Shown here piece after piece: positions 8,766 to 43,902 of a stretch of 51,268 nucleotides of DNA. The stretch covers positions 1 through 51,268 of the forward strand of contig JAFXUU010000064.1 of NCBI GenBank assembly GCA_017524845.1. Direction: 5' to 3'. Numbering within the stretch: the first letter of the stretch is position 1; each line of letters begins with the position of its first letter. The position numbers and the translations under genes are program-made. The stretch comes from Oscillospiraceae bacterium (GTDB lineage: Bacteria; Bacillota; Clostridia; Oscillospirales; Oscillospiraceae). The notes beneath the pieces were generated by a model. That model searched no databases. It was not told where the DNA came from and saw nothing but the letters and a program-made list of their open reading frames with translations.

Positions 8766-9935
8766 ATGAAGGAAAGCTTCGACCTGCAGGAATACCTGTC
8801 CAATGGGATCGAACGCTTTGTGGCGGATGTGGTCAAGGCGACGCTGAAGAACCCCAGGGAGAGCGCTTTCATGCTGAAATTCGCCGTCGCCTCCGCCGCC
8901 GCCTCACAAAAGCGAAAGGCTGCCGAGGCGCAGGGGCAGCATATCCCCTCCTTCCTGATCGCCAGCATCACCAGCCAGTGCAACCTTCACTGCGCCGGCT
9001 GCTATTCCCGCTGCAACCATGAGACGGTGGACGCCCGGCCGACGGCGCAGCTGACGGACGACGACTGGCTGCGGGTATTCAGCGAGGCGGACGAGCTGGG
9101 CATCAGCTTCATCCTGCTGGCAGGCGGGGAGCCGATGCTTCGGAAGGATATCATCAAGGCCGCCGGCAAGCGCCAGAACATCCTGTTTCCCATTTTCACC
9201 AACGGCACCTTTCTCGATGATACATACCTGGAGCTTTTCGACAAATGCCGCAACCTCGTGCCGGTCATGAGCATCGAGGGCGAAAAGGAAAACACCGACG
9301 CCCGGCGCGGGAAAGGCATTTATGAGCTGCTCATCCGGAATATGGACAAGCTGCAGACCAGAGGCCTGATCTTCGGGGCCTCCGTCACCGTGACGACGCA
9401 GAACATCCGGGAGGTCACCTCGGACGCCTTTTTGAAGGAGCTCTCCGGCCGGGGCTGCAAGGCGGTGATCTTTGTGGAATTCGTCCCCGTGACGGAGGAG
9501 AGCAGCGAGCTGGCTCCGGGGGATGCGGAGCGGGAATACCTGAAAGCGGAGCTCAATCGTATGCGGCAGGAGCATCCGGAGATGGTCTACGTTTCCTTCC
9601 CCGGCGATGAAAAGAGCTCCGGCGGCTGCGTGGCCGCGGGTCGCGGGTTCTTCCACATCAATTCTCACGGCGGCGCGGAGCCCTGCCCGTTTTCACCCTA
9701 TTCGGATATCAACGTCAAGGACACTTCCCTGAAGGAAGCCCTGAACTCCCGGCTGTTTCGGGCGCTTCGGGAAAACGGCCATCTCCTGGAGGAACACGCG
9801 GGCGGATGCGTGCTCAATGAAAAGCGGGAGCTGGTGGAGTCGCTGCTTGCCCTGAGTCTCCACCCGCAGGCCGCGGCAGACCGGGAGCAGCTGCCGGGCG
9901 GCCTCATCGGAGCAAACGCGGCGGCGATTGACTGA
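8766..9935 (+). CDS. Radical SAM protein, iron-operon neighbour, substrate unknown
   Basis: A 389-residue radical SAM enzyme. The [4Fe-4S]/SAM motif CNLHCAGC uses C72, C76 and C79. AGGEPML is the glycine-rich SAM-contact strand. The C-terminal part has scattered cysteines (GGCVAAGRG, EPCPFSPY, GGCVLNEKR) resembling a reduced SPASM-like cluster region. An N-terminal helical extension (about 1-60) precedes the barrel. The start at 8766 is set by AAAGGAG directly upstream. It is paired with an HxlR regulator, a pairing seen in other Clostridia, but I know of no demonstrated function. The nearby operator suggests expression linked to iron. Confidence 0.85.
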   Translation: MKESFDLQEYLSNGIERFVADVVKATLKNPRESAFMLKFAVASAAASQKRKAAEAQGQHIPSFLIASITSQCNLHCAGCYSRCNHETVDARPTAQLTDDDWLRVFSEADELGISFILLAGGEPMLRKDIIKAAGKRQNILFPIFTNGTFLDDTYLELFDKCRNLVPVMSIEGEKENTDARRGKGIYELLIRNMDKLQTRGLIFGASVTVTTQNIREVTSDAFLKELSGRGCKAVIFVEFVPVTEESSELAPGDAEREYLKAELNRMRQEHPEMVYVSFPGDEKSSGGCVAAGRGFFHINSHGGAEPCPFSPYSDINVKDTSLKEALNSRLFRALRENGHLLEEHAGGCVLNEKRELVESLLALSLHPQAAADREQLPGGLIGANAAAID

Positions 9936-29278: not shown

Positions 29279-30043
29279 TTACAGATTCTTCCGGCGCACG
29301 ATCACCACGTTTGCAGCCAGCATCGACGCCGCGGCATAGGCCGCCAGAACGGCGATGTTCAGCCAGCTTGCCCGGCCGCCGTAGGCGATGGCCCGCAGGG
29401 AACCGCTGGCGTGGGTCAGGGGCAGGATGCTGATGAGCACCTGGATCCACTTCGGGACCCGATCCAGAGGGAAGAAGGTATTGCAAAGGAAGGTCATGGG
29501 CAGGATGGTATAGGTGGAGAAGCGGGTGATGTCCGCGTGGTTGGTGGCCAGGATGGCCGCCAGCACCCCCAGGCCTCCGAAGGTCAGGCCGTTGAGGAGC
29601 ATCACCAGGAAAAAGCCCGGGCTCAGGTGCATCGTCGCGCCGAAGGGGAGGGAGAGCAGGAGGATGAGCAGCCCGCAGTACATGCCCCGCAGCGCTCCGC
29701 CGAGCATCTGACCGACGATATAGGCGGGCATGGGCGTGGGCGAGATGATGATGTGGTCGAAGCTGTGCTCAAACAGCCGCTGCACGTTCAGGGGCTGTCC
29801 CACGGCGGCGAAGCTGGCGTTCATGGTGGTGAGGGCGAGGATGCCCGGCACCAGGAAGTCGATGTAAGGCCGGTCCGTGACGCTGCTCGCGGAGCCCAGG
29901 CCCCAGCCGAGAGCGATCATATACAGCAGGGGGCTCACCAGCGCGGACGCGGTGATCTTCTTCCACTCGAATTTGAAATCCACCCACTTTTCCCAGAGCA
30001 CGGTGCCGATGCCCCGGAAGAACATATCCGTTTTCGTATGCAT
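29279..30043 (-). CDS. ABC-2 type transporter permease
   Basis: A 254-residue permease with about six membrane helices (ALVSPLLYMIALGWGLG, GLLILLLSLPFGATM, FFLVMLLNGLTFGGLGVLAAIL, and the last helix ahead of NVVIVRRKNL). It belongs to the ABC-2/daunorubicin-type exporter superfamily. ATG 30043 overlaps the ATPase stop (TGATG), and TTGGAGG precedes it. With the ATPase it forms a two-gene transporter at the end of the chelatase operon. Export of a tetrapyrrole or metal complex is a guess from context; a BtuCD importer would look different. Confidence 0.9.
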   Translation of the reverse strand: MHTKTDMFFRGIGTVLWEKWVDFKFEWKKITASALVSPLLYMIALGWGLGSASSVTDRPYIDFLVPGILALTTMNASFAAVGQPLNVQRLFEHSFDHIIISPTPMPAYIVGQMLGGALRGMYCGLLILLLSLPFGATMHLSPGFFLVMLLNGLTFGGLGVLAAILATNHADITRFSTYTILPMTFLCNTFFPLDRVPKWIQVLISILPLTHASGSLRAIAYGGRASWLNIAVLAAYAAASMLAANVVIVRRKNL

Positions 30044-30891
30044 CACTTTGCCTCCAATCCCCTGCCGGCCACCGCCAGGAACACGTCTTCGAGCGTCGTG
30101 GTCCGGACGGAGAAATTTCCCGTCAGCCCTGCGGTGTAGCGCAGCGCCGCCTCCCGGTCCGGGAAATAGGCGCTCTCGGTCCGCCCGTCGCGGAAGGCGT
30201 CCACCGCCACCTCTCCCAGCTCCCGGATCAGCTCCTGCGGCGTGGAGAGGCGGGCGATCCGCCCCTTGTTCATCAGGGCGACATTCCGGCAGAGAGACTG
30301 GGCCTCGTCGATGTAATGGGTGGTGAGGAGGATGGTGAGACCGTCCCGGTTGAGGCCCCGCAGGAGGTCCCAGATCTGCCGCCGGGAGGCCGGATCCAGA
30401 CCGGTGGTAGGCTCGTCCAGATAGAGGATCTCCGGCTTCGTCAGCAGCGCCCGGCACAGCATGAGCTTCCGCTTCATGCCGCCGGAGAGCATGCGCACGG
30501 TCTTCTTCCGATGCTCCGCGAGGCCGCCGAACGCCAGCAGCTCCTGGCTGCGGCTTCGGATCTCCTCCCGGTCCATGGCGTAGAGCCGCCCCTGCAGCTC
30601 CATGATCTCATCCAGGTTCATGTCGTTGCGCAGGGAGTTGTGCTGCGTGATGAGCGCCAGCTTCCGCTTCAGGTCTCCCCGCTTCCGGGTCAGCACCTGG
30701 CCGTCGATCAGGATTTCCCCCTCCGTGGGGAGCAGCAGGGTGGAGAGGATGCCGATCAGGGTGGTCTTCCCCGCCCCGTTGGGCCCCAGGAGCCCGAAGA
30801 ACTCCCCGGTGGGGATGGTCAGGGATACGTCGTCCAGTGCCTTCTCCGCTGCCTTTGGATAGGTTTTCGACACATGCCGGATCTCGATCAT
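30043..30891 (-). CDS. ABC transporter ATP-binding protein
   Basis: A 282-residue ATPase with Walker A GPNGAGKTT, Q-loop ALITQHNSL, signature LSGGMKRK, Walker B ILYLDEPT and H-loop TTHY. The C-terminal extension with TTTLEDVFLAVAGRGLEAK is typical of ABC-2 exporter ATPases (DrrA/NatA/CcmA-like). Its ATG overlaps the CobN stop (ATGA, 30888-30891), which strongly suggests co-translation with the chelatase. It energises the permease downstream. Confidence 0.95.
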   Translation of the reverse strand: MIEIRHVSKTYPKAAEKALDDVSLTIPTGEFFGLLGPNGAGKTTLIGILSTLLLPTEGEILIDGQVLTRKRGDLKRKLALITQHNSLRNDMNLDEIMELQGRLYAMDREEIRSRSQELLAFGGLAEHRKKTVRMLSGGMKRKLMLCRALLTKPEILYLDEPTTGLDPASRRQIWDLLRGLNRDGLTILLTTHYIDEAQSLCRNVALMNKGRIARLSTPQELIRELGEVAVDAFRDGRTESAYFPDREAALRYTAGLTGNFSVRTTTLEDVFLAVAGRGLEAK

Positions 30892-33800
30892 GTGCTCGCC
30901 TCCTCAATGCTGCCCTCCGCCTGCATATAGATGCTTCGGAGCTTTCTGAGCGTCTCCCCGTCCGTCTCCCACATGCCCCGCTGGTGGGCCTCCAGGAGCC
31001 GTTCGGCGGCGGAATGGACGGCCCAGCGGTTGACCCGCTCCATCCACCGGCGGGTGTCCCCGTCGAAAAGGAACCGCTCGGCAAAGGACTGATACATCCA
31101 GTCCTCCGCCGCGTCGGCGGTGGCGTCCCAGCCGAACAGGCTGTCCAGGGCGGCGGAGATCTCCTGCGCCCCCTTGAAGCCGTGCCGCTTCAGACCCTCC
31201 AGCCACTTGGGGTTCAGGATCCTGCTGCGCACCACCCGGGCGGTCTCCCGGGCCAGGGTGCGGGTCACGGGCCGGTCCGGGTCGTCGGTATGCCCGGTGA
31301 CGGAGAGGGGCGCATGGCCGGAATTGGCCCGCACAGCTGCCGCCAATCCTCCGTGATAAGCGTAAAAATCATCGCTGTCCAGCATATCGTACTCCGCGGT
31401 GCTCTCATTTTTCACCGTCACGGCCACCGTGGACAGGCGGCGGCGGAATGCTTCCGTATGCTCTGTCCCATGCTCCCGGCCGGAATAGCCGTAGCCGGAC
31501 CAGGTCTCGAACACCCGGGCCAGGTCCCGGAAGTCCGTCCACTGGCGGCTTTCGATGACCTTGGCCACCGCCGAGCCGTAGGTGCCCGGGGCGCAGCCGT
31601 AGACCCGGAGATACGCCTCGTCCAGCGCCTGATCCCGGGGGATGCCCCGGCTCGTCAGCGCCTCCACGTCCTGCCGCAGGTGCTTTTTGATGAAGTTTTG
31701 CTCCTCCGGCTCGTCCAGGGTCCCCACGCTTGTCACCGCCTGGTCCATGAGCCGGATGAGATTGGGGTACATGTCCCGGAAAAGGCCGGAGATGCGCAGG
31801 GTCACGTCGATGCGGGGCCGGCCGAGCTCCGACAGCGGGATGGGCTCCACCCCCGCCACGCAGCTGCTCTCTCCCAGGTATACGGGCCGGACCCCCATGA
31901 GATGAAGGCACTCGGCAAAATCCTCGCCGCAGGTCTTGATGGTGTTCCCCGCCCAGACCACCATGGCCACGCTCTCCGGCACCCCCTCTCCGGTTCCAGC
32001 GTACTGGTCCAGCAGCTGGCGGGCGAGGCGGCCGCCGATCTCCCAGGCCGCCCGGGAGGGGATCTGCGTCGGGTCGCTTGCATAGAAGTTCCGTCCCGTG
32101 GGCAGGATGGATACGTTCCCCCGGGTGGGATTTCCCCCCAGGGCCGGGGGCACGAAGCGCCCGGCGAAGCCCGCCAGGAAATACCGCATCTCGTCGGTGA
32201 CGTGATCCAGCTTATCCGTGACCACGGTGCAGAGGAACTCCAGCACCCGGCGCAGGTCGGCGGTCCCGCCCGGGAAGGCCTCCCTTTCCAGAACGGCGCC
32301 GATCGCCGCCGGGTCCCAGCCCCGCTCCGCCAGGGCGGAGACGAGCCGCCGGGCGGCGGCCGTGGCCATGTCCCGCAGCTCCAGGCCGGAGACGCCCCCG
32401 AAGTCGGCGGCGGGCGCATCCTTCACGGCCTCGGGATCGTGCCCCAGGGCGGCGATCACGCTGTCCGTCAGGGCGGGAACGCCGCCATTTTTCACCCGCA
32501 CCAGGGCCCGGAGCAGGTTCTCATACAGCTTTCCCTCCGGCACCTGGCCGAAGACGTGCAGGCCGTCCTTCACCAGGGAATTTTTCAGCTCTCCCATCCA
32601 CAGGTGGATCGCCTCCACGGCGCCGTCGGGGTCCGCCTCGAACCCCTTTTCGTCCAGACCGAGGTCCAGGGTGAGCCGCTCCCCCGCCGCCAGGTCGAAG
32701 ATCCGGCGGGCCAGGGCGGGGGCCTGGGCGGGGCGCACCTGCCGGGCCTGGTGATATTCCTTCAGCGCCTCGTCGATGACCGCCAGCCCCTCGTAGCTCT
32801 CCGCCTCGTCCAGACTGGGAGGCATATGGTCCAGGATCACCGCCCAGCTGCGGCGCTTGGCCTGGATCCCCTCTCCCACGATGCCCATATGGTAGGGATA
32901 AAGGTGGGGCAGGCTGCCCAGGCAGAGATCCGGCCAGCAGTCCCGGCTCAGACCCACCTCCTTGCCCGGCGTCCACTCCAGGGTGCCGTGGGTGCCCACG
33001 TGCACCACGCAGTCGGCCCCGAAGCATTCCTCCAGCCAGCGGTAATAGGCGAGATAGCTGTAGGGCGGGGTGCTGTCCGTGCTGTGGTAGAGCTCCGAAG
33101 CCCGCTCCCCGAAGGCCCGGGAGGGCTGCAGGCCGATGAAGATATGGCCGCAGAGCAGACCGGGGATCAGCAGCCTGTCGTCCAGCGCCATGACCTCCCC
33201 CGGCGCTCTCCCCCAGGCGCCGGACAGCGCTTCCCTCACTCTCTCGGAAAGGGGGCCGAACCAGCTCCGCCAGGTTTCCGGCGGGATCACGGCTGCCGCC
33301 TTTTCCTCCATGGCCTCCTCGCTCGTCCAGCGCAGGTCGTTCGTCAGCCCCGCGGTCACCGCGTCGGCCAGGGCCTGGGCGGTCTCAAAGGAGAAATCCG
33401 TCTCCACTCCCTCATCCCGCAGGGCCTCCACGATGCGCAGGACGCTCTCGAAGGTGTCCAGCCCCTCGGCGCAGCCGATCCGGTCGTTGCCGGGCATGGT
33501 GTTGAAGAGGATCGCGATCCTCTTCTCACCGGCGGCGGTTCGCCGGAGCTTCGCCCAGTTCATGGCCAGGCGGCAGACCCGCTCCACCCGGTCCGGCAGG
33601 GGGACGAAGAGCTTGCGCTCCCCCGCCGGCCCCGTCTCGGCGGCCTGGGCGGCGTTGGGTACGGAGATGATCTGCCCGTCCGTCTCCGGCTGGAACACGT
33701 GGGAGGTCAGGGACAAGCTGTCGATCCCCTGGGGCAGGGTCTCATAGTCCTCGGGAGTGAATCGGGTGAGCATCACCTGGATCGCGGGCACGTCGTAAAA

Positions 33801-34634
33801 GGAAAAGATGCTGTCCGGTACCTCCCGGACGCCGTCCCCCGGCCAACCCATGTGGGTGAGGGCGAAGCCGGTGAGCACCAGGATCACGTCCGGCAGGGAC
33901 CGTCCTTCCCGGGTGAAATACCGCTCCATAGCCCCGCGGATGCCCAGCTTCTCGTCCTCGTCGCTGCTCATGCGGGTAAACAGAGGCAGGGTCACCGCTC
34001 CCAGCCGGTCCAGCTCCGCCAGGGTGGCGTCGATGTGCCGGACGTTGTCGTTCACGATCTGGCTCTGGTGGAGGATGAGCCCCACCACCGGCTTTTCTCC
34101 CCGGGCTGCCAGGGCGATGCGCTCCTCCGCCTCCTCCCGGCTCAGCACCCGGCCTCGGTCGTATAAGCCCTCCTCCAGGGGCGGCACCGGTGCCGGCGGC
34201 GAGACCTGAGCGCCGAACCGGTCCCGGGCGATGCACAGGAGCATCCCGTAATAGTTCGGCTCGTCCCCGTAGCGAAAATACTTCTGCAGCTCCCGGTATT
34301 CCTCCTCCGTGAGCCCGGAATCGGGCATCAGCTCCGCGATCTCCTGGGGCAGGGAGGATTCAAAGTATACGGGCATCCTTCGGGTGATGGCCTGCCATAC
34401 CTTCGGAAACCCCTCCAGCTTCTGGGCGCTCCCGTGGAAGCGCATGATGGCAAAGTCGCACGCCTCCGCCTCCGCGAGCATGGCGGGCGTCTTCTCCGGG
34501 TGGGCGCAGAGGTCCCAGAGGGACCAGCAGCTGCCGGAGAAGAGACCGGGACAGGTCTCCTCCGTCCGCAGGAGCGCCCGGCGCATGTTCCACAGCCGGT
34601 CCTCCGCGGCGATTAGGCACAGGATCTTCTTCAC
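30888..34634 (-). CDS. cobN: CobN/BchH-type metal chelatase large subunit
   Basis: A 1248-residue CobN/magnesium-chelatase-H family protein that inserts a divalent metal into a tetrapyrrole using ATP hydrolysis by ChlI/ChlD-type AAA+ partners. Family patterns include ILHQSQIVNDNVRHIDATLAEL near residue 190, CVVHVGTHGTLEWTPGKEVGLS, GRLARQLLDQY, and the C-terminal ISGLFRDMYPNLIRLMDQAV and TWSGYGYSGREHG segments. The length matches aerobic-type CobN. GTG 34634 overlaps the radical SAM stop (GTGA) and has GGGAGAT upstream. Cobalt and a corrin precursor are the default substrates. In an anaerobe the true tetrapyrrole is uncertain, and the B12 riboswitch upstream points to corrinoid metabolism. Confidence 0.93.
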   Translation of the reverse strand: MKKILCLIAAEDRLWNMRRALLRTEETCPGLFSGSCWSLWDLCAHPEKTPAMLAEAEACDFAIMRFHGSAQKLEGFPKVWQAITRRMPVYFESSLPQEIAELMPDSGLTEEEYRELQKYFRYGDEPNYYGMLLCIARDRFGAQVSPPAPVPPLEEGLYDRGRVLSREEAEERIALAARGEKPVVGLILHQSQIVNDNVRHIDATLAELDRLGAVTLPLFTRMSSDEDEKLGIRGAMERYFTREGRSLPDVILVLTGFALTHMGWPGDGVREVPDSIFSFYDVPAIQVMLTRFTPEDYETLPQGIDSLSLTSHVFQPETDGQIISVPNAAQAAETGPAGERKLFVPLPDRVERVCRLAMNWAKLRRTAAGEKRIAILFNTMPGNDRIGCAEGLDTFESVLRIVEALRDEGVETDFSFETAQALADAVTAGLTNDLRWTSEEAMEEKAAAVIPPETWRSWFGPLSERVREALSGAWGRAPGEVMALDDRLLIPGLLCGHIFIGLQPSRAFGERASELYHSTDSTPPYSYLAYYRWLEECFGADCVVHVGTHGTLEWTPGKEVGLSRDCWPDLCLGSLPHLYPYHMGIVGEGIQAKRRSWAVILDHMPPSLDEAESYEGLAVIDEALKEYHQARQVRPAQAPALARRIFDLAAGERLTLDLGLDEKGFEADPDGAVEAIHLWMGELKNSLVKDGLHVFGQVPEGKLYENLLRALVRVKNGGVPALTDSVIAALGHDPEAVKDAPAADFGGVSGLELRDMATAAARRLVSALAERGWDPAAIGAVLEREAFPGGTADLRRVLEFLCTVVTDKLDHVTDEMRYFLAGFAGRFVPPALGGNPTRGNVSILPTGRNFYASDPTQIPSRAAWEIGGRLARQLLDQYAGTGEGVPESVAMVVWAGNTIKTCGEDFAECLHLMGVRPVYLGESSCVAGVEPIPLSELGRPRIDVTLRISGLFRDMYPNLIRLMDQAVTSVGTLDEPEEQNFIKKHLRQDVEALTSRGIPRDQALDEAYLRVYGCAPGTYGSAVAKVIESRQWTDFRDLARVFETWSGYGYSGREHGTEHTEAFRRRLSTVAVTVKNESTAEYDMLDSDDFYAYHGGLAAAVRANSGHAPLSVTGHTDDPDRPVTRTLARETARVVRSRILNPKWLEGLKRHGFKGAQEISAALDSLFGWDATADAAEDWMYQSFAERFLFDGDTRRWMERVNRWAVHSAAERLLEAHQRGMWETDGETLRKLRSIYMQAEGSIEEAST

Positions 34635-35650
34635 AGGCTTTCATCTCCCGTCATGATCTCCGATATGACCGCCTGCATCACGCAGGTCAGCGGGGCGGGT
34701 CTGCCCGCCGTCCTTCCGGCGGGACAGCCCCCGCCGCAGAGAAAAAAGCGCCCGCAGCGCCGGCATTCCGCCGGAGCTTCCAGGGCGGCAAGGCCGCGCT
34801 CTCCCGCAGGCAGCCCGTCCCGAAGGTTCCCCAGACGGAATTCTTTCCGTCCCGCCAGGGACGAGCAGGGCCAAAGGTCTCCCCGGGCGTCCACCGCCAG
34901 GGACAGCTCCGTCTGGGCATAGCAGTAAAACTCCCCGCCGCCGCTTTTCCGGCGGCTGCGCCACCGGTCCAGCTCCCGCAGATGAAAGGGGACGCCCGCC
35001 CGCTCCAGGGTGAGAGTCTTTTCCACCAGCGCCCGAAGGCCCCGGCGCAGCGAAGCCGGATCGGGGGCCAGGTCCGCGCCCGCGCCCCGGCCCAGGGGGC
35101 GGAAAAGGTCCAGCCCCACGCCCCGCACGTTTCCCAGGGTCAAAGCCAGGTCAGCCAGAAGCTCCAGGCGCGGCGCGTTCAGCGCCGTCACCACGGCGGT
35201 GAGGTTGCACCGGCCCCCGGCTTCGCCGAGACGGCGGATGCCCGCCGCGGCCTCCTCATAGGAAGGGGCTCCGTCCGGGAAGCGGCGGCAGCCGTTCAGG
35301 GCCCCCGGACCGTCCAGGCTGACTCCCACCGCGCAGGGGAGGGCCAGGAGCGCCCGGCAGCGCTCCGGGGTGAGGAGGATACCGTTGGTCTGGACGGACA
35401 TGGAGAGCCTCCGGCCCGTCCTCCGGCCGAAGTCCGCCGCGGCGGTGATGGTCTCCCAGGCCAGCAGGGGCTCCCCGCCGGTGAACTGGACGCGCAGACT
35501 CCCCCCGGGAGGACAGGCAAGCTCGATCGCCCGGCAGGCAGTCTCCGGCTTCATGTGCGCTCCGCCGGGACCGGCGTCGGCATAGCAGTAGGCGCAGTTC
35601 AGATCGCAGTCCTCCGTGATCCGTAGGATCAGACTTCGCAGCTCAGTCAC
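34631..35650 (-). CDS. Radical SAM/SPASM protein of the chelatase operon
   Basis: A 339-residue radical SAM enzyme. The cluster motif CDLNCAYC uses C15, C19 and C22, and QFTGGEPLL is the SAM-binding strand. The C-terminal SPASM region includes FYCYAQTELSL, WPCSSLAG, CRRCGRFFLCGGGCPAG and a final Cys, the pattern of enzymes that hold two auxiliary [4Fe-4S] clusters (anSME, peptide maturases). GTG 35650 overlaps the previous stop, with GAGGAG upstream. Such enzymes usually modify a peptide or protein, and no precursor peptide is evident. Its place between ChlD and CobN suggests maturation of an operon product or tetrapyrrole modification; this is inference. Confidence 0.9.
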   Translation of the reverse strand: MTELRSLILRITEDCDLNCAYCYADAGPGGAHMKPETACRAIELACPPGGSLRVQFTGGEPLLAWETITAAADFGRRTGRRLSMSVQTNGILLTPERCRALLALPCAVGVSLDGPGALNGCRRFPDGAPSYEEAAAGIRRLGEAGGRCNLTAVVTALNAPRLELLADLALTLGNVRGVGLDLFRPLGRGAGADLAPDPASLRRGLRALVEKTLTLERAGVPFHLRELDRWRSRRKSGGGEFYCYAQTELSLAVDARGDLWPCSSLAGRKEFRLGNLRDGLPAGERGLAALEAPAECRRCGRFFLCGGGCPAGRTAGRPAPLTCVMQAVISEIMTGDESL

Positions 35651-36171
35651 GGTGCAGCAGCTCCTCCGTTTCCTTCAGGCGCTCGGCCCAGCCTTCCGCC
35701 CGGGCGGCGTCCACGATCTCCATGTTCCCTCCCTGGATCTCTCCGAGGCCGGAGGTACCGTCCTCCAGCTCCCCCTCCGCGGCCATGAGGCCGGCGGCAG
35801 CGGTGCGGCCGTCCTCTCCCTGCACCAGCTGCCGGAGCCGGGCAAAGGCATTCCGCAGGTTGTCCGGCCACCCCGTAGGCGAACCATGCGTTCAGGTCCG
35901 TCACGTCCTTCGGCGTCACGTTTCCGATGCCCGCGGCGGCGTTGGCGGGACACAGGGGCACCCGAAAGCGGGCATGCTTGCAGAGCCCGGGATTCGCCAG
36001 CGGTTCCCTGTCCCCGTGATCGCAGTCCGCCAGGAGCACGTCGTAATCCCCGGTCACGGCCTCCCGGGGAGCATCCCGGGAGGACAGGAGGCGGATCTCC
36101 GCCCCCGCAGCCGCCGCGCTTCGGATGGCGGGGGTCATCAAATGATCTCCCGCAGCGTAAATGCGCAGGAT
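35643..36171 (-). pseudogene. Unrecognised chelatase-operon protein, interrupted by a 1-nt frameshift
   Basis: Two minus-strand frames join if one base is removed from a 4-G run (plus-strand CCCC at 35871-35874). The N-part reads LRIYAAGDHLMTPAIRSAAA through DLNAWFAYG, and the C-part reads WPDNLRNAFARLRQLVQGED through KETEELLHRD. Repaired, it would be about 176 residues, soluble, with a few Cys (ADCDHGD, NPGLCKHARF, VPLCPAN). The start is unclear: GGGGAGG precedes ATC/CTG (36171/36168), and an ATG lies further in at 36138. The frame begins right after the ChlD stop. I do not recognise the family. Either a real mutation or an assembly error. Confidence 0.6.
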
Positions 36172-36180
36172 TCCTCCCCG

Positions 36181-38103
36181 TCAGTCTCCCAGCCCGCCGA
36201 GCAGCGTCCCGCTTTTCACGATGGCCCGCAGCTGATCTCCCCGCAGCTCGTCCACCTTACAGTAGTCGGCGTTCATAGCCCCGGCCACCTGCGCGGCGAT
36301 GTGCAGGGAGATGAAGTCCCGCTCCGTGTCGATGACCATGGCGGGGATGCCGTCCCGGCGGATGAGCTCCGCGGCCCGCAGGGCGTCGGCGACGGCGTCG
36401 TCCGTCCACAGGGGGCGGTTGGCCCGGCCGTCCGTGACCAGCACCACCATGGGCAGCATCTCCGGATCCTTCAGCCGCCGGGCGCGCAGCAGCTCCCAGG
36501 CCCGGTAAAGCCCGGCTGCCAGGGGCGTCCGCCCGCCGGTGGGCAGGGCCTGGAGCTTCCTCTGAGCCAGCTCCACGCTGGATGTGATGTCCAGGAGGGT
36601 CTGAGCGCCCTCCCGGCGGAAGGCGACCAGCCCGATCCGGTCCCGCTTCTGATAGGAATCCAGCAGCATGGAAAGGACGGCCTCCTTTGCGGCCTTCATC
36701 CGCTTCTGCGCGCCCATGGAGCCGCTGGCGTCCACCGCGAACACGATGGTGGCCCCCACATGGCTCTCCCGCACCTTGAAGCGCAGATCGTCCGGCCGGA
36801 TCGCCACGGCGCAGTCCGTATGCTCACGCTGCTTCTGATACGGCGCGGCGGCGCGAAGGGTGGCGTCCAGGGCAAGGTCGTGCTGCCGGGGACCGGGGTG
36901 GGCTGTGAATGCGGCGTAGCGTCCCTTGTCCGTGCCGCTCCTGGTCTTGTTCCTGCGGCCGCTTCCCCGGCGGAGCAGCCGATCCTGGGGCAGGGAGGGC
37001 AGGATGGACAGCAGACTGACCTCTTCTCCCTCCACCATCTCCTCCTCCGGCGCCGTTCCTCCCTCCGGGGGCGGCTCTTCCGGGGGCGGCGCGCCGTCCC
37101 CTGCGTTCCCTTCCGTGTCGGCAGGCAGTTCCCGCTCCGGTCCCGGTTCCTCCGGGGCCTGCGTCTCCGGGGAGACCTGCGGCTCTTCTGTTTTGTCGGG
37201 CGGCGCCTCTTTTTGTTCCTGCTGCGGGGGTTCCTCCCGTTCAGGCTCAGGCTCCCGCGCCTCCCGCTGCCTGTGGGGCAGCACGAAAAGCGCCGCCTCC
37301 TTCAGATCCTCTTTTGTGACGCTTTTCCGGCCCTCCCAGGCGGCGTTGGCGGCGGCGGCGCGCACCAGCACCAGCTCGCAGCGGTTGCCCTCGCAGCCCG
37401 CCCGGAGGACATACTCCGATGCCAGACGGCGGACGCCCTCCTCCGGTACGAGCTCCCGCAGCAGGGCCTGCGCCCGGCGGATCCGTTCGGCGAGCCGGCC
37501 GGATTCCTCCTGCCAGCTTCGGCAGAAGGCGGCGGGGTCCCTTTCATAGGCGAGACGGCGGCGGAGGATCTCGCAGCGCTTTTCCACGTCCTTTTCCCCG
37601 GCGACCTCCACGTAGAGGCCGAAGCGGTCCAGAAACTGAGGACGGAGCTTCCCTTCCTCCGGGTTCATGGTACCCACCAGGGCGAAGCGGCAGGAGTGAC
37701 GATAGCTGACGCCCTCCCGCTCCACCAGGTTCTCCCCGGCGGCCGCGGCGCAGATGAGGACGCTGACGATGCTGTCCGGCAGCAGGTTCACCTCGTCCAC
37801 ATAGAGGAGCTGCCCGTCCGCCCGCTCCAGCACGCCGCCGCTGAACGCCCGGACCCCCTCCCGCACCGCCTTTTCAAAGTCGACGGAGCCCACCAGCATG
37901 TCCTCCGTGACGTTCAGCGGCAGCTCCACCACCCGCTGCCGGGTGAGGGCCGCCAGGCCACGGACCACCGTGGATTTGGCGGTCCCCTTTTCTCCGCACA
38001 GCAACACCCCGCCGATGCGGGGGTCGATGAGGTTCAGAATCAGGGCCTTTTTCACCCGCTCCTGCCCCACCACCGCGGCAAAGGGATAGCGCAGCTCAGT
38101 CAT
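36181..38103 (-). CDS. ChlD/BchD-type AAA+/VWA chelatase subunit
   Basis: A 640-residue chelatase motor partner. The N-terminal AAA+ module (about 1-260) has Walker [10 protein letters not shown] and a Walker B-like [10 protein letters not shown], so unlike many ChlD proteins its ATPase site looks intact. A Pro/Glu-rich acidic linker follows (about 270-375; [17 protein letters not shown]). The C-terminal VWA domain has the MIDAS motif DASGSM with Asp458 and later VTDGRANRP, which contacts CobN. The ATG overlaps the ChlI stop by 8 nt. It assembles with the ChlI-like protein into the hexameric motor driving metal insertion. Confidence 0.93.
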
Positions 38104-39109
38104 GCAGCACGCTCTCCCAGTCCTCCGGCAGGCCGGTGGCGGTGTCGAAGGGCATGCGCCGCATCCGATGGGTCAGCACCATGGGGGCCACCCGGATCAG
38201 CTGCTCCCGGGAGGCCTCCCCCGTCCCCTCGAAGGCGGCCAGGGTACAGGCGGCCTTCAGCAGGGTGATGTCCGAGCGGTGGCCGTCCACCTGGAGCGCC
38301 ACGCCGATGCGCGCCGCGTCCCGATAGAGGCTGTCGGGGATCGTCACCTCTCCCAGCTTTGCCTGGGCAAGGCGCACCTTTTCCCGCAGGGCCGCCTGCT
38401 CCGGCTCCCAGCTGCGGCAGAAGCCCTCGGGGTCGGCCTCGTATGCCAGCCTGCGGCGGATGAGCTCCGAGCGCAGGGAGATGTCCTGTTCCCCCCGGAT
38501 CTCCACCACCAGGCCGAAGCGATCCAGCAGCTGCGGACGCAGGTCCCCTTCCTCCGGGTTCATGGTCCCCACCAGCACGAACCGGGCAGGGTGACTGTAG
38601 CTGACCCCCTCCCGCTCCACGGTGTTCACTCCCATGGCGGCGCTGTCCAGCAGCACGTCCACGATATGATCGTCCAGCAGGTTCACCTCGTCCACATAGA
38701 GGATGTTCCCGTTGGCCTGGGCCAGCAGCCCGGGCTCGAACACCTTCTCCCCTTTTTTGATGGCCTGCTCCATGCTCAGGGAGCCCACGACCCGGTCCTC
38801 CGTGGAGCTGACGGGCAGCTCCACCACCCTGCGGGTGTAGGGCACGGTCCGCAGCGTCCCCTTTTCCTGCTTTTCCCGGCAGTCGGCGCAGAGCTCTCCC
38901 CGGTCCGGGCGGCAGTGGAAGGGGCAGCCCTCCGAAACCTGCACCTCCTCCAGCAGCTCCGTGAGGCCCCGCACGGCGGTGGACTTGGCGGTGCCCTTTT
39001 CCCCGCGGATGAGCACGCCTCCCAGGGCGGGATTGATGAGGTTGAGGATCAGGGCCAGCTTCATCTGCTCCTGGCCCACGATGGCGGTGAAGGGATAGAT
39101 TCGTTCCAT
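38096..39109 (-). CDS. ChlI/BchI-type AAA+ chelatase ATPase subunit
   Basis: A 337-residue AAA+ protein with Walker [10 protein letters not shown] (about 36-44), Walker [34 protein letters not shown] (sensor/arginine-finger region) and the [18 protein letters not shown] helix. A four-cysteine insert (C62, C66, C74, C77; [16 protein letters not shown]) resembles a zinc knuckle and is seen in the CobN-linked branch rather than plant ChlI. ATG 39109 has AAAGGAA upstream. It powers CobN with the ChlD-like protein. Confidence 0.94.
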
Positions 39110-39144
39110 GGCGTCGTTCCTTTCCCGGAGTCGGCCTCCGTCCG

Positions 39145-39381
39145 TCAGACGGACGGCCGATCCTTTTCTTCTTCCTGCTCCGGCAGCTCCGATACGGAAC
39201 GGAGCAGGGGGATGCCCTCCCGGGCGGCGGCCTCCAGCAGCCGGCCGTTCAGAGCGTTGAGCGTGCCTGCGGGGGTCCCGGCATTCAGGATCCGGCCGCA
39301 GCGCCGCACCAGCTCCCAGGCTGCGGCGTACTGCGCGGTAAGTCATTTCCCGGCCGGAGGCTCCGTTTTCGTTTTTTTCAT
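39145..39381 (-). pseudogene. Short ORF with an in-frame TGA at codon 13
   Basis: ATG 39381 has a good SD (GAAAGG). The frame reads [12 protein letters not shown], then TGA (39343-39345), then continues open for 65 codons: [19 protein letters not shown] through [12 protein letters not shown]. The second part has helical, gene-like composition and ends 35 nt before the ChlI start. Options: a nonsense mutation, a true start at a later GTG/CTG, or recoding as selenocysteine. A stem of 11 bp with a 2-nt bulge begins 8 nt after the TGA (39298-39334), but GC-rich sequence yields such stems easily. I do not recognise the protein. Confidence 0.5.
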
Positions 39382-39450
39382 ATCGGACGCCTTTCAAAAT
39401 AATTTGACCCGGCAGGGCGGATGGCCGCCCTGCCAGTCCGGGTTTGCGCG

Positions 39451-39725
39451 TCAGCTGATCTCGATCAGGTGGTCGGTCGTTACATTCAGGGGATCGTCGC
39501 TCTTCAGGATGGTGTTCATATCCTGCAGGATCCCGGCGATGGCGGCCGCCACGTTGGGCAGATACCAGCCGCTCTTGTCCGTGCCCACCAGGGGAATCCG
39601 GTCGTTGCAGCCGATGTCGTCCACCAGGCTCATCATGCCGGTGGAGGCCATTTAGACTTTGTCGATGGGCATCTGAAGCACATAGGTGCCCTCCTCCAGG
39701 CCCTCCGGCACCTTTTCTCTGCAAA
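39451..39725 (-). pseudogene. Remnant of an ABC-type (BtuF/FeuA-like) substrate-binding protein gene
   Basis: The minus-strand frame reads [20 protein letters not shown], then TAA (39652-39654), then [25 protein letters not shown] and [11 protein letters not shown]. This resembles the start of the mature region of siderophore/cobalamin-type binding proteins, where a Tyr codon (TAC/TAT) would sit at the stop, hence a likely nonsense change. The signal peptide is missing. After AAAI the text switches to an unfamiliar tail ending DHLIEIS, indicating a deletion. It lies directly after the riboswitch terminator, where an importer gene would be expected. Confidence 0.65.
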
Positions 39726-39758
39726 GAATCAGACCGCGGCAGCACAAAGCTGCCGCGG
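39724..39758 (-). terminator. Terminator in the expression platform of the cobalamin riboswitch
   Basis: On the minus strand CCGCGGCAGC-TTTGT-GCTGCCGCGG (39758-39734) is followed by TCTGATTCTTTG. The tail is only moderately T-rich. It is placed to stop transcription when B12 is bound; that mode is inferred. Confidence 0.7.
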
Positions 39759-39817
39759 CCGGTTTTCCGCAAAAGAGCTCTCCCTTCCCATGATCCGAGG
39801 AAGGAGAGTGAGCCGAA

Positions 39818-40022
39818 CCTCAAGCAGGTCTTCTGACTTCGCGCGTAGGGCGGACGTCTGTCCGTCTGCGGGCCGGCTTGCCTTCCCGGTTTCCCAGTGA
39901 CCGTTTTTCAACGTAAGGCCGACCCTCCGCGCATACAGCGGCGGTACCGTCCGGGATTCTCACCCGGTTCTCTATTCTCCCGCGCGGTCCGAACGCAGCG
40001 CGGGCACTTGAGGCGCCTGGAA
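39818..40022 (-). ncRNA. Cobalamin (B12) riboswitch
   Basis: The minus strand contains the conserved B12 box GAAGTCAGAAGACCTGC (39840-39824) and the core blocks GGTGAGAATCCCGGACGGT, CGCCGCTGTATGCGCGGA, GTCACTGGGAAACCGGGAAGG and a 5' GGCGCCTCAAGTGCCC segment, in the order of the Cobalamin element. It lies between a consensus promoter and a terminator. Binding of adenosyl- or other cobalamin is expected to reduce expression of the downstream chelatase genes. Confidence 0.95.
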
Positions 40023-40033
40023 TTTTCAAAAGC

Positions 40034-40062
40034 ATAATAGCCGCTTTTTCCCTGTCTGTCAA
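40034..40062 (-). promoter_or_regulatory. Promoter of the riboswitch-controlled chelatase operon
   Basis: Minus strand: TTGACA (40062-40057), exact 17-bp spacer, TATTAT (40039-40034). The predicted start is about 10 nt before the riboswitch aptamer. Confidence 0.88.
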
Positions 40063-40525: not shown

Positions 40526-41473
40526 TCAGTGGATGGTAGCGTTGAGGCCGTAAGAGGCCACGATGTCCTTCAGCTCGGCCATCTTCTCGTCGGAGGGCGG
40601 CGTCGCCTCCATGGGCTTGCCGTCGCTGATGCGGAGGTATTTCATCACGCCCATGTTGTGATAGGGCAGCAGCTGCACCACCTCCACCGCGTCCCCCAGC
40701 TCCCTGCAGAACGCCGCCGTGGCGCGGATGTTCTCCTCGTCCCAGTTGAACATGGGGATCACCGGGATGCGGACCTGCAGCTTCTTGCCAGCCGCGGCCA
40801 GCTTCCGGGCGTTTTCATGGATCTGCTCGTTGGGTACGCCCACCGCAGCCTTGTGCTTCGCCGAGTCCATGTGCTTGAGGTCATAGAGATAAAGATCCAC
40901 ATAAGGGGTCGTGCGCTCCATGGTCTCCCAGGGGGCGAAGCCCGTGGTGTCCAGGGCCACGTGGATCCCGTTATCCTTCAGGCCCTTCAGCACCTCCACC
41001 ACGAAATCGATCTGGCATAGGGGCTCCCCGCCGGAGATCGTCACCCCGCCGCCGGAGGTATCGAAAAAGCTTTTGTCCTGGAGAAGGCGGTTCACCAGCG
41101 CCTCGGAGGTGTAGTCCTTTCCGCAGAGGGTCAGCGCTTCGGCGTAGCACTTGTCGGCGCAGGCCCCGCAGTTGTCGCAGAGATCCCGCTTCACGTGCAC
41201 GGTTCGCAGCTGCTCCCCGGTCTGCACGTCCGTCTTCAGGGGCCCCTCCTCGATGGCGTCTTTGGGGCAGGCCTTCATGCAGCGGCTTTTGCAGGCGTCC
41301 AGGCCCAGGCAGCGCATGCTCATCCAGCTGAGCTGCTTATAGAACGCCTGGCTCTCCGGACTGTGGCACCAGGGACAGCGCAGGGGGCAGCCCTTCAGAA
41401 AGGCCGTGGTGCGGATGCCGGGGCCGTCCTGCACGGAAAAGCCCTGGATATCGTAGAGGCGGCCTTCCGTCAT
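40526..41473 (-). CDS. Glycyl radical enzyme activase (radical SAM)
   Basis: A 315-residue activating enzyme that abstracts a hydrogen from the glycine of its partner enzyme. The SAM cluster motif CPLRCPWC uses C29, C33 and C36, and TISGGEPL follows. An insert with ferredoxin-like cysteines (CLGLDACKSRCMKACP and CDNCGACADKCYAEA) carries two auxiliary clusters, as in activases of dehydratase/eliminase-type enzymes rather than PflA itself. DTTGFA and LYDLKHMD are family segments. Its ATG overlaps the partner's stop (ATGA, 41470-41473), so they are made together. Confidence 0.95.
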   Translation of the reverse strand: MTEGRLYDIQGFSVQDGPGIRTTAFLKGCPLRCPWCHSPESQAFYKQLSWMSMRCLGLDACKSRCMKACPKDAIEEGPLKTDVQTGEQLRTVHVKRDLCDNCGACADKCYAEALTLCGKDYTSEALVNRLLQDKSFFDTSGGGVTISGGEPLCQIDFVVEVLKGLKDNGIHVALDTTGFAPWETMERTTPYVDLYLYDLKHMDSAKHKAAVGVPNEQIHENARKLAAAGKKLQVRIPVIPMFNWDEENIRATAAFCRELGDAVEVVQLLPYHNMGVMKYLRISDGKPMEATPPSDEKMAELKDIVASYGLNATIH

Positions 41474-43902
41474 ATGCTCATTTCGGTGCGGCGGATCAGG
41501 TCGTCCTGGGCTTCCTTGTAGACCTCCACGAAGTAGGCGGAGAAACCGGCGATCCTCACGACCAGGTCCTCATAATCCTTGGGCTTCTCCTGGGCCTCCC
41601 GGAGCATCTTGGCGGAGACCACGTTGATCTGCAGCTCCATGCCGCCGCCCCGGAAATAGGTCTCCATGACGGCCCGGAGCTTTTTGTCGCCCTCGGCGCC
41701 CTGGAGGGCGGTGGGATGGAACTTCATGTTGCACAGGGTACCGTTGGCGTAATTGGCCTGGTCGAATTTCAGGATGGAATTGATGGTAGCGAAGGGGCCG
41801 TTCTTGTCCATGCCCTGCACGGGGGAGATGCCGTCGGACAGGGGGGCGCCGCGCTTGCGCCCGTCGGGCGTGGCATCGCAGAACATACCCATGACCACGT
41901 TGAGGGTCACGGGCCAGCAGCCCGCCGTCCAGTGGCAGCCGCGGGGAGAGGTGCCCCGGGTGATGCCCTCACTGTAGGTGTCCGCCACGAACTTGAGATA
42001 CTTGTCGGCCTCGGGATCGTTGTTGCCGAAGTGGCTGCAGCGGCCCAGGATGTACTGGTGCAGGTCCTCGTAGCCCTCCCAGTTGTTGATGAGGGCGTCG
42101 TAGAGCTCGCGGGTGGTGGCGATCTTGTCCCGGAAGCAGACCTGGTCGATGATGTTGAGGCTGTCGGCCACGGTGCCGTGTCCGATGCTGGAGTTGCCCG
42201 CGCCGTTGTACTTCGCGCCGCCCCACATCACGTCCCTGCCGCTCTCGATGCAGCCGGTCATGGTGGCGGAGAGGAGGGGCAGGGGATTGTTCATGGCGTA
42301 GAGGTATTCGTAGCAGTTGACCATGGTGACCTGCCACTTGGTGAAGAAATCGATCTGTGCCTTGTAGGCGTCCAGCACCTGCTGCATGCTGGTCATCTCA
42401 TAGAGATAGCCGCACTGGGGGCCGGTAGGCTTCAGCTCCTTCTTCACGGTGGAGCGGTGCAGGGTGGGGAAGGGATTGATGCCGTTGTTGATGGCGCACC
42501 ACAGGGCCGCGGGCAGGATCGTGTAGGCGTTGTTGCCGTCGCCGCCGGAATTGGCGAAGTCGCAGCCGCAGATGCAGGGCTCCACGCAGCCGATGAGGCA
42601 GTAGTTCCGGGCGTCCTCCAGGGGGATGCCCCGGCGCATCAGGGATTCCATGGCGACCTTGTCCCACTCGAAGAGGGGCACGCCGCCCACCTGCTTCGTA
42701 GTCTCGATGCCGGCCTCCCAGAGCTCGTCGGGGGTGCCCTCGTGGACGCGCAGCGCCAGGGGAGGATTGTGCAGCTTCAGCCGGGCGGAGGCCTGCATGA
42801 CCATGTAGGTGACCACGTTGGTGGCGTCGTTGCCGTCCTTGTCCACGCCGCCCAGGGTGATGAGCTGGCCGGAGGTATAGCCCGGGCCGGTGCGGGTGGC
42901 GCCCTCGCTCCAGAGCTTGTTGATCTCGGCGACCTTCAGGATGAACATGTCCGTGAGCTCCTGGGCCTGCTCCCTGGTGAGCTTGCCGGAGGCGATGTCC
43001 GCCTCGGCATATTTGCCGCAGTACTGGTCCAGGCGGCCGTAGCTGATGCCGTGGGGCTGGGAATCCATCAGCAGGCCCAGCTGATAGAAGAAGCAGGCCT
43101 GCAAAGCGTCATGGTAACTCTGGCAGGGCTTGTCGATGACCCGGTTCATGCGGTCGGCGATGTCCAGCAGCTCCGCCCTGCGCTTTTCGTCCTTGCAGGT
43201 CTCCGCCTGGCGCAGGGCTTCGGCGGCATAGCGCTTGGCGTAGAGGATGATGCCCTCCACCACGGTCTCCTCCGCGCGGTAGAACTGAAGGGTCTGCCCC
43301 TCGTTCCCCTGGAGGCCCTTCTCCAGCAGAGCGGCCTTTTTGGCGCGGATCTCCTCCAGCACGCTGCCCAGACCCCGGTCCACCACGGTCCAGTAGTTGC
43401 CGCAGTAGTGGCCGATGGGGGAGCCGCTGTTGTTCTTGGCGGTGAAGTTCAGCACGCCGTTGCCCAGGAGATCCCGGTAGTATTCCTCGGGGAAGACCTC
43501 GTCGATGGCGGCGCAGGTGGCGTTCTTGATCCAGAAATCGCCGGTCTTGAGGATGTATTCCCGATCCTCGGGGTTGAGGTCATAGGGATCGACGCTCCGC
43601 GTGGGAAAGACGTCCAGCTCGTCCAGGACCCACTGGAAGGAATGCTCGGGGTAGACGGCGCTGGCCCGGAACTCCTCGCCCAGGTGGCCGACGATCAACT
43701 CATGGTCCCGCACGGGGGTGGGCATCTTCTCAAAGAGGTTGCGGAGATTCCTGGCCCGCTTGAGCACGCCGGGGAGCTGGGGGTTATTCATGTAGAACTC
43801 CGTCACCAGCTTGTAGCGGGCAAGGTCGATCCTGGGCTTCTTCGCGCGGTACATGGCGCGGATCATGGCGACCCGCTCCGAAATGGGTGCGTTCTGATAC
43901 AT
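41470..43902 (-). CDS. Glycyl radical enzyme (PFL-like, CxE eliminase type), substrate unknown
   Basis: An 810-residue glycyl radical enzyme. The radical glycine is G786 in RIAGFSAYF near the C-terminus. The thiyl Cys is C439 in GCVEP with general-base-type E441, the CxE arrangement of dehydratases, lyases and decarboxylases, not the Cys-Cys of pyruvate formate-lyase. The loop after it, CICGCDFANSGGDG, is unusually rich in Cys and Gly and does not match the choline, glycerol, hydroxyproline or isethionate enzymes as I remember them. It starts at ATG 43902 after AAGGAGG. Only its activase is in the operon; there is no microcompartment gene. The substrate is open. Confidence 0.93.
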   Translation of the reverse strand: MYQNAPISERVAMIRAMYRAKKPRIDLARYKLVTEFYMNNPQLPGVLKRARNLRNLFEKMPTPVRDHELIVGHLGEEFRASAVYPEHSFQWVLDELDVFPTRSVDPYDLNPEDREYILKTGDFWIKNATCAAIDEVFPEEYYRDLLGNGVLNFTAKNNSGSPIGHYCGNYWTVVDRGLGSVLEEIRAKKAALLEKGLQGNEGQTLQFYRAEETVVEGIILYAKRYAAEALRQAETCKDEKRRAELLDIADRMNRVIDKPCQSYHDALQACFFYQLGLLMDSQPHGISYGRLDQYCGKYAEADIASGKLTREQAQELTDMFILKVAEINKLWSEGATRTGPGYTSGQLITLGGVDKDGNDATNVVTYMVMQASARLKLHNPPLALRVHEGTPDELWEAGIETTKQVGGVPLFEWDKVAMESLMRRGIPLEDARNYCLIGCVEPCICGCDFANSGGDGNNAYTILPAALWCAINNGINPFPTLHRSTVKKELKPTGPQCGYLYEMTSMQQVLDAYKAQIDFFTKWQVTMVNCYEYLYAMNNPLPLLSATMTGCIESGRDVMWGGAKYNGAGNSSIGHGTVADSLNIIDQVCFRDKIATTRELYDALINNWEGYEDLHQYILGRCSHFGNNDPEADKYLKFVADTYSEGITRGTSPRGCHWTAGCWPVTLNVVMGMFCDATPDGRKRGAPLSDGISPVQGMDKNGPFATINSILKFDQANYANGTLCNMKFHPTALQGAEGDKKLRAVMETYFRGGGMELQINVVSAKMLREAQEKPKDYEDLVVRIAGFSAYFVEVYKEAQDDLIRRTEMSI

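Follow-up and report, generated by a model that had tools for sequence, protein, structure and literature searches.

Why would anaerobes equipped with CbiK or CbiX retain a costly, ATP-driven CobN? The question is raised by a contig of 51,268 nucleotides from an Oscillospiraceae bacterium (JAFXUU010000064.1, assembly GCA_017524845.1; the whole stretch is called the window here). On its minus strand, 29279-40062 holds six intact genes headed by a promoter-like site, a cobalamin riboswitch and a terminator-like hairpin (Table 1), and it is well supported that they form a B12-controlled corrinoid gene set. Our best explanation, for which belief and doubt are about evenly balanced, is that this is a B12-starvation operon for corrinoid salvage with late cobalt insertion, in which a SPASM radical SAM enzyme partners CobN, and that it is present here in reduced form.

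The operon and its CobN

An earlier note, made from the letters of this DNA, described a promoter, a cobalamin riboswitch and a terminator ahead of ChlI, ChlD, a SPASM radical SAM enzyme, CobN, an ABC-2 pair and an unknown protein. The control elements and all six of the named genes were recovered, and the riboswitch is the sole Rfam match above its own gathering score when the whole window is scanned. Promoter-like sites number 2 in the 1.3 kb scanned against 0.2 expected from shuffles, and terminator-like sites 5 against 2.0 expected. Overlaps were claimed at the gene junctions, and four exist (8 nucleotides between chlI and chlD; 4 each between the SPASM gene and cobN, cobN and the ATPase gene, and the ATPase and permease genes), but there is none between chlD and the supposed unknown protein. 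Genes were called by codon scoring and blastp of stop-to-stop open reading frames; lists of longest frames misplaced strands in this G+C-rich DNA. The source genome is 71% complete (2.38 Mb in 153 contigs, of which the window is C122).

Table 1. Features of the operon, listed in the direction of transcription
Feature	Position	Strand	Remarks
Promoter-like site, TTGACA-17-TATTAT	40034..40062	-	Consensus match only, 11/12 positions
Cobalamin riboswitch aptamer, RF00174	39806..40026	-	92.2 bits; gathering score 31.5
Terminator-like hairpin, downstream of aptamer	39732..39760	-	12 pairs
Relic of btuF-type substrate-binding protein	39451..39711	-	One in-frame stop
Relic of btuD-type ATPase, C-terminal part	39166..39321	-	52% over 52 residues, BtuD of L020
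chlI, AAA+ ATPase of class I chelatase	38096..39109	-	
chlD, AAA+/VWA subunit of class I chelatase	36181..38103	-	
Remnant of second cobN paralogue (clade B)	35643..36168	-	Frame broken near residue 100
SPASM radical SAM enzyme, unnamed CobN-linked family	34631..35650	-	CxxxCxxC; CX2CX5CX3C
cobN, clade A with canonical CobN	30888..34634	-	
ABC-2 type transporter ATPase	30043..30891	-	
ABC-2 type transporter permease	29279..30046	-	

The large subunit scores 1141 bits against PF02514 and passes the CobN equivalog model TIGR02257 (855.2 vs 822.05 bits); it does not pass the five listed PRK-type CobN models. In two trees rooted on HmuS, from which CobN matches spanning fewer than 2700 bases were omitted, it falls with canonical CobN in a clade that we call A, with support of 100 in the quick tree (41 of 88 rows) and 100/100 in the careful one (19 of 35 rows). 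Six annotated CobN proteins, from Azotobacter, Comamonas, Sphingobium, Natronococcus, Tsukamurella and Deinococcus, belong to this clade, and the genes of the first four adjoin other cobalamin genes. The earlier note had counted a firm grouping with canonical CobN against its own idea, and on that point its expectation failed. A second CobN paralogue forms the sister clade B (100/100 on six rows of the careful tree). BchH and HmuS lie outside both clades. Identity with BchH was rejected (TIGR02025 is not passed, at 694.6 vs 829 bits), as was identity with HmuS, with which the window protein groups in neither tree.

The superfamily residues H545, H549, E553 and K558 are kept, and R506, Y516 and H517, which are missing from both BchH rows, are present. 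In these residues, its place in the tree and its pair of AAA+ motor subunits, the protein resembles the CobN of aerobic cobaltochelatase (7c6o, 9uk9); it differs in that its host has CbiK, in its uptake and salvage context, and in its SPASM and ABC-2 partners. The substrate had been left as a corrinoid or another tetrapyrrole. Since CobN sits in the canonical clade and corrinoid genes accompany its relatives, a corrin seems the likelier of the two. Nickel chelatases have been proposed for the CobN-like proteins of methanogens (PMC3087415; papers are cited here by PMC number for selected passages).

The SPASM enzyme and the gene neighbourhood

With the host's own genome counted each time, a relative of the window CobN was found in 7 of 150 genomes of the family, and PF02514 in 10 of 391 genomes of the class and 45 of 398 of the phylum. 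Five named relatives, from Oscillibacter, Ruminococcaceae and Oscillospiraceae metagenome-assembled genomes (loci L020, L021, L022, L024 and L025), are 64-72% identical. In four of the 45 phylum genomes, all of family f135 (L148, L150, L151 and L158), NifH-like genes lie near ChlI, and the three of their CobN/BchH proteins placed in the tree fall on the BchH side; these are probably phototrophs with BchH, not salvage systems.

The SPASM gene was followed through 24 loci, the window included and several cut by contig or fetch ends; it adjoins CobN in L022 and L025 too, which stand outside this count. It shares a strand with CobN in all 24 and lies no more than 150 bases away in 17. BtuC is found in 17 loci, BtuF in 17 (the window's being a relic), CbiZ in 13 (the L120 copy a 50-bit part), ChlI and ChlD together in 15, and an ABC-2 ATPase of at least 240 bits in 16. 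The claim that the radical SAM and ABC genes are conserved with CobN is thereby borne out. The BtuCD genes of L024 are on the opposite strand, and BtuR is interposed between genes in L134 and in L144, a locus that lacks SPASM. As the earlier note had proposed to look for, a cobalamin riboswitch accompanies the gene set in the available sequence of 20 of the 24 loci (that of L020 being in the neighbouring stretch L062 and that of L081 in L181), a count that does not by itself show control of SPASM. Of the other four, L021, L087 and L147 are on contigs that start within the set, and for L035 the 17 kb that adjoin it upstream contain no riboswitch.

The window's SPASM protein carries the SPASM cysteine set. 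Its Pfam SPASM score is 14.3 bits, below the cut-off of 21.5, and none of the best 25 NCBIfam and maturase models listed for it reaches its cut-off. An AlphaFold2 model has a pLDDT of 77.3 (6 sequences). A profile (A1) made from 20 of the 24 loci (L020, L123, L125 and L127 omitted) was searched against the 398 phylum genomes, with at most five candidates scored per genome; a weak match at 8952-9932 of the window (51 bits, no SPASM motif) was excluded from the set. The search returned 17 matches of at least 360 bits and one fragment of 210 bits that adjoins a CobN fragment; the next best reached 172-177 bits. Each of the 18 genomes belongs to the set of 45 that carry PF02514; 16 of the matches lie within 4 kb of a CobN match and the other two at 12.6 and 17.6 kb on the same contig. 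The association (Fisher P = 2.6e-19) comes from a partly circular test, as 11 of the 18 genomes supplied profile rows picked for CobN proximity and G706, G744 and G768 were already known from the loci. Two results were not built into the test: four new matches (G595, G695, G731 and G782) all come from genomes with CobN, within 4 kb of it in two cases, and strong matches are absent from all 353 phylum genomes that lack PF02514.

Because of that last result the SPASM enzyme appears to be no loose neighbour, and its unnamed family is, judging from where it occurs, CobN's own partner; lack of conservation with CobN, which the earlier note had named as a danger to its idea, was not seen. The SPASM-linked rows of clade A do not form one group in the quick tree, which points either to repeated gain or loss of SPASM or to a poorly settled branching order. 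No link between a SPASM enzyme and CobN was found in the openly licensed papers searched.

Among named models and solved structures, those closest to the window protein are mostly maturases of peptides or proteins (nif11, PapB, CteB (5wgg) and sulfatase maturase), of which the peptide-modifying nif11, PapB and CteB share its radical SAM core and SPASM cysteines. The enzyme could thus mature a ranthipeptide-like peptide, a metal or corrinoid carrier that the ABC-2 pair would export. However, the maturase scores are far under the curated cut-offs (112 vs 518.7; 107.7 vs 340), and all 20 family members are matched by models that bear the names of tetrapyrrole enzymes (AhbC, AhbD and NirJ) just as they are by peptide maturase models. 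No precursor gene is seen, and none would fit between the packed genes of L024, although a precursor elsewhere was not sought. The small open reading frame ahead of chlI was considered as a precursor and rejected, as it matches the C-terminus of BtuD. We regard a peptide product as very unlikely.

A reduced copy among intact relatives

Two relics lie between the riboswitch and chlI. That of btuF covers residues 110-167 and 379-409 of a 409-residue relative, with 66% and 74% identity to the BtuF of L062; that of btuD is the C-terminal part. No btuC was found in the window's operon, which holds these relics and no intact BtuFCD importer. CbiZ is absent from the window's open reading frames by blastp with the L023 protein (the remaining genome was not searched for it). 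The unknown protein that the earlier note made part of the operon is not an intact gene, and we rejected it as a new family; it is the broken remnant of a second cobN. What survives is about residues 1-119 and then about the last 45-55 of some 1205, with roughly 1000 missing. The first 100 or so match the N-terminus of the second CobN (49% and 42%) and the end matches its C-terminus, and an intact protein of about 1205 residues is encoded at the corresponding place in L021 and L020.

In G029, from the window's own family, the intact order is riboswitch, BtuF, BtuC, BtuD, ChlI, ChlD, CobN1, SPASM, CobN2, ABC-2 ATPase and permease. Relatives thus keep btuF, btuD and the second cobN whole, and the window's operon therefore appears to be a reduced copy of an operon for corrinoid uptake and salvage that recurs in many of the phylum's sampled genomes and is made up of BtuFCD, often CbiZ, CobN, ChlI/ChlD, SPASM and ABC-2 genes. 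The remnants may also reflect assembly error in so fragmented and incomplete a genome. With btuF, btuD and the second cobN broken and btuC not found, one could suppose that the whole cluster is a decaying set of pseudogenes without remaining function. The six remaining genes are full-length, however, and the conserved residues of CobN are kept. In comparison with L021 and L024, the ratio of nonsynonymous to synonymous differences (pN/pS) is 0.18-0.44 for the intact genes (chlI, 0.20, and chlD, 0.33, against L024 only; permease, 0.18-0.24), though such ratios lag behind recent loss. Loss of all function is extremely improbable.

The closest described system is operon-2 of Dehalobacter restrictus PER-K23 (Dehre_0281-0291), which has a reported counterpart in Acetobacterium woodii (PMC4285132, PMC3910700). 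We take our locus L152 to be this operon, as its gene order, with CbiZ second and fifth and CobN seventh, fits the one printed in PMC4285132. The proteins of operon-2 are on average 46-fold more abundant at low B12, a figure for which the passages of PMC4285132 do not state whether the SPASM protein is included. L152 shares with the window a riboswitch, a clade-A CobN, ChlD, ChlI, SPASM and an ABC-2 ATPase and permease; its radical SAM gene is visible in the sequence and goes unnamed in the main text of PMC4285132, as far as its passages go. The gene order differs between the two, and where L152 still has BtuFCD, two CbiZ and a second BtuF, the window has relics of btuF and btuD, no CbiZ and the second-cobN remnant. 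The window's operon is thus a reduced variant of this kind of operon and not a full member.

Insertion, removal or exchange of cobalt

The earlier note reported no other B12-synthesis gene. That holds for the window and fails for the host genome, which has a cluster of cbiA, C, D, F, G, H, J/ET, B, cobD, cbiP and btuR (CbiC by Pfam, the others by reading the sequence) and, behind another riboswitch, CbiK with a CbiL-like gene. The note's view that ordinary early cobalt insertion is not the obvious role of the operon fits this gene content. Other BtuFCD-type sets are recognised by similarity in L056 and L057. Also in the host, a predicted protein of L055 (4785-6013, contig G000:C96), encoded behind a cobalamin riboswitch, has a hydrophobic stretch at its N-terminus and a CbiK domain in its C-terminal part, where the contig end truncates it.

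The earlier note wished to see checked whether the hosts carry the other genes of cobalamin synthesis. CbiC is present in 58 of 60 PF02514 carriers, and in the phylum sample in 43 of 45 carriers vs 176 of 398 genomes overall (Fisher P = 8.9e-15). The substrate of the late chelatase belongs to the lineage that CbiC/CobH produces. Two near-full CbiC copies occur in three of the 60 carriers (G029, G238 and G332), in each case with one copy at the CobN locus; the extra copy is beside the second CobN in G238 and G332 and ahead of the operon in G029. Many of the weak CbiK-family matches among the carriers are stretches of about 80-120 residues near CbiC, which may be short CbiX.

We suspect that the operon works as follows. 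Low B12 would release the riboswitch, as its family and the D. restrictus proteome suggest. Corrinoids or corrin precursors would be taken up, here perhaps by the other BtuFCD-type sets, since the operon's own has decayed. CobN with its ChlI/ChlD motor would then spend ATP to insert cobalt into corrin rings that lack a metal or hold the wrong one, the SPASM enzyme would act on the corrin, on CobN or on a partner and so prepare the ring for metallation, and the product would pass to BtuR, CbiZ or CbiP and loop assembly in the late pathway. The ABC-2 pair may export unusable corrin or a by-product. The metal, the chemical direction, the substrate of the SPASM enzyme and the direction of transport are what we infer here. 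Insertion is favoured because it is what such motors (ChlI/ChlD or CobS/CobT) power in the magnesium and cobalt chelatases of PMC7689651, because CobN is of the corrin type and because BtuR, CbiZ and CbiC accompany the relatives.

Haloarchaea present a similar case, as they carry an apparently unneeded late-type cobaltochelatase beside an early-insertion pathway, and cobalamin salvage has been guessed for it (PMC8305020). Our proposal for CobN and ChlI/ChlD extends that printed guess to another phylum with more supporting genes. The one haloarchaeal locus compared (L169) differs in having no annotated SPASM or ABC-2 gene and in placing CobN among corrin genes.

Several points weigh against cobalt insertion in salvage. 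The cells would need a source of metal-free corrin, and the window's operon has neither an intact importer nor CbiZ among its open reading frames. CbiK-family matches occur in 48 of the 60 carriers (33 above the cut-off), so late insertion would be mostly unneeded for synthesis from scratch. The clade-A operons L033, L034 and L144 are without SPASM, which is thus not essential to CobN. In L023 the riboswitch lies behind SPASM and ahead of BtuFCD-CbiZ-CobN, which puts SPASM outside the control of that riboswitch.

Alternatively, CobN and its motor could be no more than a back-up cobaltochelatase used when the cell makes its own B12, and the SPASM and ABC-2 genes would be neighbours by loose linkage. 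CobN passes its equivalog model and groups with canonical CobN, carriers have CbiC, and one of them (G111) is without a CbiK-family match. The prevalence of CbiK-family matches in the others tells against a back-up, as do the importer genes that accompany the set and the restriction of strong SPASM matches to genomes with PF02514, and we consider it distinctly unlikely.

Removal of cobalt is the main rival to insertion. CobN-ChlI-ChlD, with SPASM loosening the ring, would strip cobalt from imported but useless corrinoids; the freed metal would go to CbiK for de novo synthesis, and the emptied ring would leave through the ABC-2 pair. CbiC in nearly all carriers would suit such scrapping, as would the position of cbiK, which immediately follows the ABC-2 genes in L024 and lies a short way upstream of the operon in G029. 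Cobalt is very hard to remove from corrin, however, and the BtuR and CbiZ found in the operons act on cobalt corrinoids. HmuS, which belongs to the same large-subunit superfamily as the window CobN (structure 9d26), is a proven heme de-chelatase (PMC12583661). Yet HmuS is reported there to be NADH-dependent, it is distant from the window CobN in the tree, and two hmuY-linked loci have HmuY neighbours and no ChlI/ChlD. Moreover, D. restrictus induces operon-2 with a broken cbiH (PMC4285132), and freed cobalt would hardly be useful there for corrin synthesis. We judge scrapping possible, if unlikely.

A further thought is that the clade A and clade B proteins share one ChlI/ChlD motor and form with SPASM a B12-controlled corrin metal-exchange machine, in which one CobN would remove the metal or hold the ring and the other would insert cobalt, SPASM would alter the ring and the ABC-2 pair would clear the waste. 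We think this unlikely.

Other genes stand beside the operon or under the same class of control. A short way upstream of the window's riboswitch, 40526-43902 holds genes for a glycyl radical enzyme (PF02901, PF01228) and an activase-like protein, both on the strand of the riboswitch. Cobalamin riboswitch matches number 11 across the incomplete host genome. One heads BtuF/FecCD/ATPase-like genes in L056 (G000:C104:36000-46086), after which come two proteins like nitrogenase component 1 and a NifH/frxC-like one that the end of the stretch truncates, an arrangement that would place these nitrogenase-like genes under B12 control. Another precedes a 1432-residue S-layer-domain protein (L060, 2622-6920) and a third a 559-residue Ig-like protein (L059, 5859-7538), both with signal-like N-termini.

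Cobalt insertion in salvage would offer anaerobes a use for an ATP-driven chelatase that their early pathway seems not to require. One large CobN clade is now connected with genes for corrinoid uptake and with a particular SPASM enzyme of unnamed family, and D. restrictus provides an induced, culturable model for a CobN-SPASM operon. If it is true that the SPASM enzyme acts on corrins, this would be a new step in B12 chemistry.

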